Shown here piece by piece: positions 53,130 to 57,506 of a stretch of DNA of 57,506 bases; the first letter of the stretch is position 1; each line of letters begins with the position of its first letter. Origin of the DNA: Trichocoleus desertorum ATA4-8-CV12. GTDB taxonomy: Bacteria > Cyanobacteriota > Cyanobacteriia > FACHB-46. Below the pieces are notes generated by a model. That model was not told where the DNA came from, did no database searches, and saw nothing but the letters and a program-made list of their open reading frames with translations. The translations under genes and the position numbers were made by a program. The stretch lies in NCBI GenBank assembly GCA_019358975.1, contig JAHHIL010000032.1, forward strand, positions 1 through 57,506, given 5' to 3'.

Positions 53130-53414
53130 TTACTCTCTGTAACCAGTGCGGCTGACAACATCAGGCTCTTGGTGGCGAACGTTTTCCTTGGGCTTCCGGA
53201 AGAGATTAGCTAACCCTAAAAGACCGATCAGGCCAAGCCAACCCAAGTTATTGTTGTCGTTCTTGGTTTCCTGAAAGGGGGTTGTGTCAATCGTGGGGTT
53301 ATTGTTGGGGTTGCCATCAGTTTGGGCATGGCTAGGGAGACTCAAGGGGACAACCGCAAGGCTAGCAGCCAGAACGCCAGCACCAACCAACTTAGATAGA
53401 GTCGTCCGTTTCAT
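53130..53414 (-). CDS. WGxxGxxG-family small exported protein (copy 1)
   Basis: From ATG 53412-53414 the product has 94 aa. It has a signal peptide (KLVGAGVLAASLAVVPLSLPSHAQ) and a low-complexity Asn-rich mature start, then the hydrophobic C-terminal motif NNLGWLGLIGLLGLANLFRK and a tail EPDVVSRTGYRE. This signal plus WGxxGxxG plus basic end fits small cyanobacterial envelope proteins of unknown role. A paralogue is 200 bp upstream. AGAGGAA precedes the start by about nine bases. A longer start at 53459 is unlikely. Confidence 0.8.
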   Translation of the reverse strand: MKRTTLSKLVGAGVLAASLAVVPLSLPSHAQTDGNPNNNPTIDTTPFQETKNDNNNLGWLGLIGLLGLANLFRKPKENVRHQEPDVVSRTGYRE

Positions 53415-53541
53415 AGTCAAAATTCCTCTGAATACTTCTAGCGAAAGGGTGCAATGCAACGAAGCAATTAAATAATCGAATAAGACGTTTGTGAGAAGCG
53501 ATGTGAGGAGCGAACGTCCGAAAAAGCTTTAATGAGAGGGG

Positions 53542-53620: not shown

Positions 53621-53926
53621 TTAGTAGCGATTCCCAGTGCGACTCACTTCTTCGGGTTCACGATAGCGAGTGGGCTCTTCATGGCTCTTCTTGGTTAAAC
53701 CAGCCAAACCAATCAGACCGAGTAGACCCAACCAACCCCAGTCAAAGTCGCGATCGCCTTCAGCAGCGGTGTTTGTGTTGTTATAAGTAGCAGTAGTATC
53801 TGTACCTGTTGTACCTGTAGTACCAGCCTCGGTTTGAGCAGAAGCAGGCACGGTCAAAGGGAGAGTGGCTAGGCTAAGGCTAAGCACACCAGCACCGATA
53901 AACTTAGATAGAGCAGCAGCTTTCAT
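53621..53926 (-). CDS. WGxxGxxG-family small exported protein (copy 2)
   Basis: The 101-aa paralogue begins MKAAALSKFIGAGVLSLSLA, with signal peptide ending at ASAQ. The mature part has a Thr/Gly-rich repeat-like stretch (TTGTTGTDTTATYNNTNT) and the C-terminal DWGWLGLLGLIGLAGL motif, with tail EPEEVSRTGNRY. Both copies end SRTG-x-R, so the motif and tail are the conserved parts while the middle is variable. AAAAGGAATTTAATC precedes the ATG. The pair points to tandem duplication. Confidence 0.85.
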   Translation of the reverse strand: MKAAALSKFIGAGVLSLSLATLPLTVPASAQTEAGTTGTTGTDTTATYNNTNTAAEGDRDFDWGWLGLLGLIGLAGLTKKSHEEPTRYREPEEVSRTGNRY

Positions 53927-54477: not shown

Positions 54478-57342
54478 TTAATGCTTTAATCTAGGACGCT
54501 GCTGAATCGGAATTTGCACGATGAATTCTGCCCCGTCTCCTAGCGTAGAAACACAACGCAACTGCCCTTGATGCTTCTCTACGACAATCTGATAGCTAAT
54601 TGACAATCCCAATCCTGTCCCTTTGCCCACCGCTTTGGTCGTAAAAAAAGGATCAAATAGCCGCTTTTGAGTTGACTCCGTCATACCTGGGCCATTGTCC
54701 ACAATGCGAATCATGACTTGATCGGGCGCAATGATAGCCGTGCTAATCCAGATTGTGGGGAGTGGTGTGGGAGAGTCTAGAGTTAGCCTATCGTTTAGAA
54801 GCTCAGTTTCACGGCGGTTTTCTAGGGCATCGATCGCATTTGCCAGCAGGTTCATGAATACTTGGTTCAATTGGCCCGCGTAGCAGTTGATCGAAGGCAA
54901 CTCCCCGTATTCTTTAATCACCTCAATGCCTAGATAGCCTGGTCTAGGCCTCAGTTGATTCTGCAATATTACCAAGGTGTTGTCTAAGCCTTGATGAATA
55001 TCTACTGGCTTCATTTCCGCTTCGTCTAGCCGAGAGAAATTTCTTAGGGAGAGGACAATCTGACGAATCCGCTCGGCTCCCACCTGCATAGAAGCGAGAA
55101 TTCGAGTAAAGTCTTCGCCCAAAAACTCCAAGTCTATTTCTTGGATAGTGGCTTCAATAACTGGGACAGGTCGAGGATAGTGGCTTTGGTACAGGTGGAG
55201 CAGTTGAAACAGCTCTTGAAGATATTGCTTGGCATGAGTTAGGTTGCCGTAGATAAAGTTAATCGGGTTATTAATTTCGTGGGCAACGCCTGCCACCAGT
55301 TGACCCAAACTCGACATTTTCTCGCTTTGTACGAGTTGGGCCTGAGTTTGCTGTAGCTCCTGTAAAGCTTGCTGAAGTTGCTGAACTTTCTCGCGATATT
55401 GCGCTTCTGACTGCCGCAAAGCTGCTTCAGCTCGTTTGCGCTCTGTGATGTTCTCAATCATGCCGAGGCTATAGCAGGCACTGCCTTGCTGGTCTCGAAT
55501 TAAGGTAGCAGTGAGGTTGGCCCAAACAACTTCTTGAGTCTGCTTCAGGTAGCGCTTCTCGATTTGATAACTCGCGATCGCCCCAGTCACCATCTGCTCA
55601 AACAAGCGCAAGTCTTTGTTGAGGTCGGAGGGGTGAGTAATTTCCGCAAATGAACGCTGGGTCAAATCCTCGGCTTCATACATCAGCATTTTGCAGAATG
55701 CCTTGTTCACTTGGACTAAGCGTTCGTCTTCCAAGCTGGCGATCGCCATGCCAATGGGAGCATCCTCAAAAATGCGACGAAAGCGTTCTTCTGTTTTCTG
55801 AATTTGACCGAATAGCTGGGCGTTTTCTAGCGCGATCGCAATTTGACCTGCCAGGGTTTTGAAGGTGTCGAGATCGATGGCGCTAAAGTGATCCGCATAA
55901 GCATCTTGAATATTGAGAATACCAAGTAGGCTCCCACGAGCGACGAGTGGAACGGCGGCTTCCGCACCCATTAACAACGGGGTAGCACTGGCTCCGGTGC
56001 AGGTTTCACGGGCTCTAGATTCCGCAACCGCCAACTGCTGACTCCGAGCCGCACGAGCGACCAAGCTATCTGAACAATCTAAAGCAATACTAATCTCACG
56101 ATGAGCAGACCAAGACCCATCAGCTCCACTCGCCCCCGCTTGCCGACTCAGTTGTTGTGTGTTCGGCTCCAAAAGATAAATCTGAACGTGGTGCAAGTTG
56201 AAACGAGTTTGCAGCAATGTCACTGCTTCTTGCAAAAGCAACTCAGGATCGAGAATCGCTTTTGATAGCTCGCTGACGGCAAACGTGACATGCTGGCTCG
56301 CCTCTAGCTCGTGGGTGCGGTCTTCCAGCCCTTGCAGAAGTTTACCCACTTGCTCTGCCATTGCATTGAAGTTAGTCGCGAGGCTACCGATTTCATCTTT
56401 AGAGGTGACTTGGACGCGGGCGTTAAGCTGACCTGAGGTAAACTGAGCCACTCGTTGCGCTAAATGGACTAGAGGTTTGGCCAACCATTGAGCCATTGCG
56501 ATCGCCATAGCCACAACGGCGATCGCGATCAAAATTGCTAACCTCTGCGCCACTCGCACTTGAGCATAGATGGGTGCCAAAAAAATACTCTGGGGCTGTG
56601 CGAAAATGACAAACCAAGGTTGAGTTCTGAGCCGCACCGCTGCAACCGCACTGAGCTGATGATTCACTGCGGTCAGTTCTGTAGTGAAATAGGCTGGAGG
56701 ACAGGTTCTCACTGCTTTACAGGTGATCTGATTCAGTCCTCGCTCAAGGGCAGGTAAGTCGGTAGCCAGTTCTGTAGCGGGTCGCTTGGGCAAACGCCCT
56801 TCTTGCATCAAGGTTTCAAGCTTATCTGTAGATAGGGGAACCACAGACTTAAATACCAATTCCGGGGCAATGCCATGAGCGAGGCGAATGTGGTTTTCAT
56901 CCAGCAAAACTGCAAAAGATCGAGCCCCTGCCAACCCGTTATTTTGCCCCACTAGTTGTTGGATGGCTGCCGCGTTGTAGCGCACTACCAGCAGACCGAC
57001 AATCGCACCCTTAGTGTTGCGTACCGGGCTACTGAAGTAGAGGCTGACAAAATTATCGCGGCCCAACCGCATGGGCGAAGCGTAAGGAAATCCAGTTTGT
57101 AAAGGTTGCCGCACATAGTCATCATTGGTCTGGTTGCGCCCCACACTCCCCAGATTGGTATCAAGCACACCGCGACCTTGGCGATCGAACAAAGTGTAAG
57201 ACAAGATATTGAGCGAATCTCGTTGAGTTAGGGTGCGCAAAGTAGCAGCTACTTCAGCTTCAGAGGCACTGTTACGACGCTCCTTGACAGGCAAACTGAG
57301 GTATTGAGCTAGATCGGGTAATTGGGCATCTACTCGCACCAC
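54478..57342 (-). CDS. Cache-HAMP-GAF-PAS sensor histidine kinase, N-terminus truncated by an IS end
   Basis: The 954-aa reading starts at GTG 57340-57342. Residues about 1-245 are a dCache-type extracytoplasmic sensor (LSYTLFDRQGRGVLDTNLG, FVSLYFSSPVRNTKGAIVGLLVV), which normally follows an N-terminal signal-anchor helix that is missing here. The second membrane helix (AILIAIAVVAMAIAMAQWL, about 270-288) is present, then HAMP (NARVQVTSKDEIGSLATNFN), GAF (ARGSLLGILNIQDAYADHFS), PAS (IFEDAPIGMAIASLEDERLV), HisKA VAGVAHEINNPINF and HATPase (MNLLANAIDAL, DNGPGMT, GKGTGLGLSIS). The open frame continues upstream into the IS right end to a TAG near 57411. Translation start is therefore unclear; the gene is probably disrupted. 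Confidence 0.87.
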   Translation of the reverse strand: MVRVDAQLPDLAQYLSLPVKERRNSASEAEVAATLRTLTQRDSLNILSYTLFDRQGRGVLDTNLGSVGRNQTNDDYVRQPLQTGFPYASPMRLGRDNFVSLYFSSPVRNTKGAIVGLLVVRYNAAAIQQLVGQNNGLAGARSFAVLLDENHIRLAHGIAPELVFKSVVPLSTDKLETLMQEGRLPKRPATELATDLPALERGLNQITCKAVRTCPPAYFTTELTAVNHQLSAVAAVRLRTQPWFVIFAQPQSIFLAPIYAQVRVAQRLAILIAIAVVAMAIAMAQWLAKPLVHLAQRVAQFTSGQLNARVQVTSKDEIGSLATNFNAMAEQVGKLLQGLEDRTHELEASQHVTFAVSELSKAILDPELLLQEAVTLLQTRFNLHHVQIYLLEPNTQQLSRQAGASGADGSWSAHREISIALDCSDSLVARAARSQQLAVAESRARETCTGASATPLLMGAEAAVPLVARGSLLGILNIQDAYADHFSAIDLDTFKTLAGQIAIALENAQLFGQIQKTEERFRRIFEDAPIGMAIASLEDERLVQVNKAFCKMLMYEAEDLTQRSFAEITHPSDLNKDLRLFEQMVTGAIASYQIEKRYLKQTQEVVWANLTATLIRDQQGSACYSLGMIENITERKRAEAALRQSEAQYREKVQQLQQALQELQQTQAQLVQSEKMSSLGQLVAGVAHEINNPINFIYGNLTHAKQYLQELFQLLHLYQSHYPRPVPVIEATIQEIDLEFLGEDFTRILASMQVGAERIRQIVLSLRNFSRLDEAEMKPVDIHQGLDNTLVILQNQLRPRPGYLGIEVIKEYGELPSINCYAGQLNQVFMNLLANAIDALENRRETELLNDRLTLDSPTPLPTIWISTAIIAPDQVMIRIVDNGPGMTESTQKRLFDPFFTTKAVGKGTGLGLSISYQIVVEKHQGQLRCVSTLGDGAEFIVQIPIQQRPRLKH

Positions 57343-57356
57343 ATCTAAGTTGGCTG

Positions 57357-57506
57357 TTTTGACACTCCCACGGCTAAAACACGTGGGATTCTTGGCTCTA
57401 CGAAACCACTTAACCTAGAGTCCTTGCGTCATCTAGGCCAGAGGTGGGATTCTCCCCAAGCGTTACTTCGGGTATGCCCTACCCTAGTTGCATTGCTGCA
57501 AGTCCT
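57357..57506 (-). mobile_element. IS200/IS605-type element, right end (partial)
   Basis: Read on the minus strand, the segment contains AAGAATCCCACGTGTTTTAG and CCGTGGGAGTGTC, a short hairpin (CCCACG at 57367-57372 with CGTGGG at 57382-57387, extended to 7 bp) followed by GTGTCA. This is the form of the right-end hairpin of IS200/IS605 elements that carry tnpB. It adjoins the truncated kinase at about 57357-57361. The element's body lies beyond the window. Confidence 0.6.
57429..57506 (-). pseudogene. TnpB-like C-terminal tail (cut by window edge)
   Basis: The minus-strand frame enters at the right edge and gives 25 residues, ending SNATRVGHTRSNAWGESHLW and a stop at 57429-57431. The GHTRSNA pattern resembles the variable C-terminal tail of TnpB/IS1341-type proteins in cyanobacteria. 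It is 70 bp upstream of the right-end hairpin, as expected. Too short for a firm family assignment. Confidence 0.4.

Follow-up and report, generated by a model that had tools for sequence, protein, structure and literature searches.

The window, a stretch of 57,506 nucleotides from Trichocoleus desertorum ATA4-8-CV12, makes up all of contig C32 in a draft genome (G000; 6.06 Mb, 90 contigs). The contig terminates inside a repeat, its final 148 bases (57359-57506) being a right end (RE) of the IS200/IS605 type that directly adjoins the C-terminal part of a sensor kinase gene. The features of this region, listed with their basis, are:

54478..57358, minus strand: C-terminal kinase part, Cache-HAMP-GAF-PAS-HisKA-HATPase, consisting of the last 959 codons, the stop codon and the third base of split codon 63 (profiles, orthologue comparison)
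54478..57342, minus strand: longest open reading frame left with a start codon (GTG, 954 aa; ORF list)
54502..54873, minus strand: HATPase_c domain (profile search)
56347..56496, minus strand: HAMP domain (profile search)
56893..57324, minus strand: what is left of the dCache_1 sensor domain, covering profile positions 38-176 of 240 and scoring 25.3 bits against a cut-off of 45 (profile search)
57339..57358, minus strand: the 20 nt of host DNA that follow the RE, where a TnpB guide would lie if the RNA acts as an omega-RNA (position rule for the ISDra2 reRNA, accessible text of PMC8612924)
57359..57365, minus strand: RE terminus GTGTCAA (TTGACAC on the plus strand), element/host boundary 57359/57358 (empty-site comparison with genome G002)
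57367..57387, minus strand: RE hairpin ahead of the terminus (sequence; the matching hairpin, helix 7, covaries in homologues)
57359..57506, minus strand: RE part of the mobile element, corresponding to the 3' domain of a conserved RNA with an omega-RNA-like scaffold, cut by the contig edge (repeat copies; covariance model R2, 158.8 bits)

The original prediction held that an IS200/IS605-type end had cut the kinase, leaving a reading that begins in the middle of a domain, lacks the first membrane helix and has only a GTG start with no ribosome-binding site, and that everything downstream is intact. Comparison with related genomes bore this out. The kinase frame is open from the element (57357) down to 54478, i.e., for 959 codons with zero stops, and includes GAF, PAS and HisKA domains (the last at 26.8 bits against a cut-off of 26.9). 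The dCache_1 profile is entered only at position 38 of 240, and the first start codon of the remnant, the GTG at 57342, is not preceded by a ribosome-binding-like sequence. Orthologues with longer frames are present in two genomes of the same genus, G002 (94% identity) and G001 (82%). The G002 orthologue is an uninterrupted ORF of 1022 aa that begins with a GTG and a hydrophobic helix; it starts not at residue 1 of the window's reading but 63 residues earlier, and the missing helix is among these N-terminal residues.

The missing N-terminus, which the original prediction had suggested to seek beyond a left end (LE), was found at the start of contig C67, joined to such an end. In G002, the 1.5 kb preceding the junction match C67:126-1622 of G000 at 94%. 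On C67, the kinase frame runs to ...TALTLDAF, then enters the LE of the element and meets a stop 17 residues on. The N-terminal stub thus consists of 62 codons, retains the first hydrophobic helix and ends in the element, and the C-terminal part retains the second hydrophobic stretch and the signalling domains. Joined, the two halves align to the uninterrupted G002 gene. The kinase gene is most likely inactive. Read-through from the element may possibly yield a truncated kinase, because sister copies and homologues of the element carry a promoter-like box pointing that way, although the remnant lacks a good start for translation. Beside the remnant, on the minus strand, lie two adjacent and similar small ORFs (53130-53459 and 53621-53926) with a WGWLGLLGL-like C-terminal segment, possibly of the WGxxG type.

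A search of the genome against itself found the 148-bp end repeated at full length, with 97-99% identity, in contigs C58, C4 and C10, and its RE-terminal 126 bp repeated at 99% at the ends of C87 and C31. This agrees with the predicted hairpin and GTGTCA end of an IS605-type element abutting the sensor domain; the location was right, whereas the boundary proved to lie exactly at 57358/57359 and the RE to end in GTGTCAA rather than GTGTCA. In total, six copies were recognised in G000, namely those spanning C67-C32 (the window's own), C43-C31, C47-C58 and C63-C87 and those inside C4 and C10. For two of them, the contig pairs C63-C58 and C47-C87 had been a first guess, which was discarded when alignment with G002 gave C63-C87 and C47-C58 instead. 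Only two copies are assembled through, C4:158457-159005 (549 bp) and C10:46414-46972 (559 bp), both counting the TTAT; the remaining four break within stretches common to the copies. The contig ends have 126-127 bases in common, and a base specific to the window stands at a distance of 128 from the edge, a pattern that points to a k-mer of 127 in the assembly. Of the window's own copy, the 148-bp RE is visible on C32 and about 123 bp of LE on C67; since the interior is unassembled, its content is inferred from the sister copies. Subterminal hairpins are present in the sequence at both LE and RE, that of the RE with covariation as well.

The empty site proposed for a related strain was found in G002, with an exact junction. 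For all six copies, the joined flanks align to an unoccupied G002 site and the junction neither gains nor loses a base. The left flank ends in TTAT in 6/6 copies, and TTAT is present at five of the six corresponding sites in G002, the kinase site there reading TTGT. In the kinase, the joined G000 sequence reads GCC TTT ATA ACA GCC in frame, where the codon ATA corresponds to GTA in G002 and ATC in G001. The insertion is thus exact, 3' of TTAT, inside codon 63, without target duplication and in sense direction. The left flank of the C10 copy contains a 15-base tandem duplication that is absent from G002; the end of this duplication is 8 bases away from the junction, which places the insertion in the second of its copies. 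The copies lie at scattered sites, two of the six inside genes (the kinase and a VKOR-family gene) and both of these in sense direction; the VKOR-family gene is cut between the end of C43 and the start of C31, and its G002 counterpart is a 192-aa ORF. The element itself was not found in G002 or G001, where the only matches were 33-78 bases long and to the ends of related elements.

The insertion had been predicted to be recent. Substitutions were counted by parsimony over 958 shared codons with G001 as outgroup. The G000 branch carries 7 nonsynonymous and 40 synonymous codon changes and the G002 branch 7 and 49, with 45 synonymous and 41 nonsynonymous differences that could not be placed; for the G000-G002 pair, dN is 0.029 and dS 0.251. 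Relaxed selection on the remnant was thus not seen in the comparison of the two branches over these codons, which points to a recent insertion or to continued selection on the remnant. From this comparison the insertion looks recent, in line with the prediction.

By contrast, tnpA and tnpB, which were expected beyond the window edge, are in neither of the two resolved sister copies, from which the window copy is inferred. Neither C4:158457-159005 nor C10:46414-46972 contains a Pfam match to TnpA or TnpB, and the 12 PF01797 matches of the genome all fall outside them. Both contain a small ORF in reverse direction (39 and 42 codons in C4 and C10, respectively), which in C10 is RHH-like, with RHH_1 as its best Pfam match at 18.8 bits, below the cut-off of 20.5. 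Both also contain a noncoding segment of about 320 nt that ends at the RE. The broken copy on C58 also has part of the 5' domain of the RNA described below (model R1, 54.1 bits). A tnpB-bearing copy with closely matching ends was not found in the assembled G000, from which small contigs may be missing. The genome does contain a tnpA/tnpB element, C4:39278-40974, with a Y1_Tnp domain in its tnpA ORF. Over its first 54 bases this element shares 96% and 93% identity with the LEs of the C4 and C10 copies, respectively, and over a stretch of 57 bases 89% with the C67 LE. The LE of a tnpB element on C21 (C21:48408-48474, L108) matches the query LE on both strands as a near-palindrome.

The noncoding segment is conserved far beyond this genome. 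A 334-base query from C10 matched 98 of the 388 genomes of the class (E <= 0.001); many of these matches are to the RE hairpin alone, and in several families 70-85% matches extend over nearly the full length. Homologues of the RNA occur in many genera. With strict filters and no more than 10 candidates scored per genome, a setting in which misses are likely, the 5'-domain model R1 was found in at least 45 of the 388 genomes and at least 34 of 160 genera. An alignment (A1) of 19 members over 375 columns, chosen by eye from 30 fetched loci for intact ends and alignable 5' parts, gave 66 base pairs in RNAalifold, 40 of them changed on both sides. The domain alignments A2 and A3 have 18 rows, L124 being omitted for an insertion. 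In the 5' domain (21 pairs), 97.1% of pair cells are kept and 10 pairs are changed on both sides; the respective values for the 3' domain (41 pairs) are 97.2% and 28. None of 500 shuffles reached the covariation score or the count of pairs changed on both sides in either domain, and two of 500 attained as many further pair types as the 5' domain, a comparison in which related sequences can exceed shuffles. Slid controls keep 25-49% of pair cells, a control that leans towards structure because the structure was derived from those same sequences. Two G-U pairs, one per domain, are kept in 18/18 sequences, which fits an RNA of the LE-to-RE sense strand and not of its complement. A pseudoknot seen by eye in the 5' domain (GAACC-GGTTC) was not counted as evidence, its core columns hardly varying.

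A promoter-like box precedes the RNA. Within the 33 bases ahead of it, examined in 22 of the 30 loci, the best TATAAT match reaches five of six letters in 11 loci, compared to 12.7% of random stretches. TAnnnT stands at offsets -27 to -24 from the RNA anchor in 18/22 loci, compared to 6.3% at random positions, and is directly preceded by TGn in 15 of these 18. The nominal P of 1.6e-18 for TAnnnT is too strong, as motif and register were picked on the same, related loci. Rfam contributed little: at the gathering score, two loci around the C10 copy gave zero matches, and with an E-value limit the C10 element gave one chance-level lncRNA match and three homologous loci gave two sub-threshold matches, SQ1002_RNA and RAGATH-18. 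A further copy of the RNA lies on the Dolichospermum flos-aquae plasmid pAfl69 (NZ_CP051207.1, L106:3001-3320); it is 82% identical to 57% of the C10 element and overlaps no annotated feature. Divergent relatives of the 5' domain (L177-L182 and L186-L190, e.g., in G020, G190, G170, G122 and G386; 38-57 bits) are followed by other 3' parts, and 9 of the 11 end, by eye, in GTCAC; G020 has at least 10 copies of such a relative. Of these loci, R2 matched only L181 (15.3 bits) at E up to 1, and in 14 divergent-relative loci the only Rfam matches at gathering score were NsiR1 and NsiR4, known cyanobacterial small RNAs.

The 3' domain links the RNA to TnpB. R2 matches the 3' ends of tnpB genes, from which omega-RNA (reRNA) is produced, on C3 (101.9 bits), C21 (82.0 bits) and C33 of G001 (89.3 bits). 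Among the 25 tnpB places of G000, 20 were searched with R1 and R2: for R2, two were strong, six weak (13-20 bits) and 12 without a match, one of the latter having just two partial 21-nt hits, and R1 matched none of the 20 tnpB 3' ends, with an antisense match of 29.7 bits beside the tnpB on C48. We also built a tnpB HMM from 18 proteins of this genome and ran it on 81 loci of the RNA (65 distinct places), most of which span about 1.5-2 kb of flank and some of which are cut by contig ends. It matched only four loci, i.e., two places, and at each of these the tnpB is external to the element: at one it follows the RE downstream, and at the other it is upstream, with an LE between tnpB and the RNA. 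TnpB is present in 45/45 genomes with R1, yet also in 13 of 15 genomes without reported R1; as it is this common in the control genomes, the co-occurrence discriminates nothing. G000 contains a second family of short elements, about 230-430 bp long (C7:10218-10613, C7:12263-12658, C1:418387-418803, C8:71991-72409 and C59:15596-15828; L046, L045, L047, L054 and L052), whose ends are of the same type (TTAC flank, RE ...GTGCGTCAA) and whose noncoding interior differs. R2 matches these elements weakly (17.7-28.4 bits) and R1 not at all.

Together, these data make it likely that the kinase was split by a short, probably non-autonomous, PATE-like element derived from IS200/IS605 and carrying a guide-RNA-like RNA, with TnpA and perhaps TnpB supplied in trans. 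According to the accessible text of PMC8612924, TnpA excises single strands and inserts them 3' of a short target, and TnpB, guided by an RNA from the RE, has been proposed to cleave the vacated donor joint, whose repair would bring the element back. By analogy, the Y1 TnpA of another element, with C4:39278-40974 as candidate donor, would move the short element. Transcription of the RNA would start at its own promoter and run on into the flank, giving it a 3' end of host sequence, here the first kinase bases after the RE, as guide with TTAT as target motif. A TnpB encoded elsewhere, for which those on C3 and C21 are candidates, may then use the RNA to cut the empty donor site (TTAT + AACAGCC...) and thereby retain the element.

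An ordinary insertion of the IS605/IS1341 type, with tnpB and perhaps tnpA in the unassembled interior, the short copies being deletion derivatives and the RNA a leftover of the tnpB 3' end, is an unlikely explanation. The window copy is indeed seen only at its two ends (148 bp at the RE, about 123 bp at the LE), and diverged tnpB-bearing relatives with similar ends exist on C21 and on C33 of G001. However, no tnpB-bearing copy with closely matching ends was found in the assembled genome, and a mere leftover would hardly be expected to have a 5' domain that was not found at the tnpB 3' ends searched, a promoter-like box and wide conservation without an internal tnpB. Conservation across many genera and the own promoter-like box would suit a structured RNA with a regulatory role in the cell, for which the IS ends are only a vehicle, but we consider this improbable given that the six copies in G000 are scattered, two of them inside genes, that all six sites are empty in G002, and that the 3' half matches TnpB omega-RNA regions. 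Still further down in probability, and very improbable altogether, is IStron-like self-splicing, in which a ribozyme would leave the kinase mRNA and restore the protein. Both in-gene insertions are in sense direction, which by chance is expected one time in four, and their exact junctions would restore the frame; against this, the 3' half is omega-RNA-like, and no Rfam group I intron match was obtained for the C10 element (E up to 10) or three homologous loci (E up to 1).

If the preferred reading of a non-autonomous element served in trans is extended to the homologues, cyanobacteria may harbour widespread RNA-only selfish elements. We advance this tentatively, at somewhat less than even confidence: such elements would be a few hundred bp long and encode no movement protein, would have ends of the IS605 type and a TnpB-type guide RNA equipped with its own promoter and an extra 5' domain, and would parasitise the TnpA and TnpB of others, TnpB retaining each through a guide copied from its flank. 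PATEs, as noncoding elements related to IS605, are already known, and so are TnpB guide RNAs. A literature search, which included the accessible parts of PMC10711439, PMC11061315, PMC11448079, PMC12558985, PMC3119063, PMC7290912, PMC10278001 and PMC8612924, found no such element described and is no proof of absence from print. If true, an element whose main conserved content is a promoter-bearing guide-RNA-like RNA would suggest that TnpB is exploitable in trans and would offer a naturally occurring collection of TnpB guides whose empty sites are known. For the host, a sensor kinase was most likely lost by an exact insertion that draft assembly hid at a contig edge.

Among known systems, RAGATH-18 is the guide RNA of an IS607 TnpB (PMC11061315, accessible text). 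One homologous locus (L141) matches it weakly at 23.9 bits (E 0.79), below the Rfam gathering score of 44.9, and so is not a member by this test. IS200/IS605 elements such as IS608 and ISDra2 share with the present element subterminal hairpins and insertion 3' of a short target without duplication. The RE of IS608 ends in TCAA, as does that of the present element. The targets of IS608 and ISDra2 are given as TTAC and TTGAT in the accessible text of PMC8612924, compared to TTAT here. In contrast to those elements, neither resolved copy contains TnpA or TnpB. The RNA resembles the omega-RNA or reRNA of ISDra2 TnpB in ending at the RE, with the host flank as would-be guide, but is about 320 nt long compared to about 150 nt there (PMC8612924, accessible text). 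Its 3' scaffold matches the RE of some tnpB elements of this genus, whereas the extra 5' domain, the promoter-like box of its own and the placement in an element without tnpB set it apart. In architecture the element resembles PATE, described in Haloquadratum, which has near-terminal palindromes and IS605-type-like ends, no terminal inverted repeats (TIR), no target duplication and a length too short for a transposase; one of them, HqIRS71, looks like a lengthened terminal segment that includes part of a C-terminal coding region, and is regarded as noncoding (PMC3119063, accessible text). Both resolved copies (549 and 559 bp) likewise have near-terminal palindromes, lack TIR and duplication, and are too short for a transposase. 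Unlike in the PATE description as accessible in PMC3119063, which mentions no RNA, a covarying RNA of about 320 nt with a promoter-like box, common to several genera, fills most of the present element.
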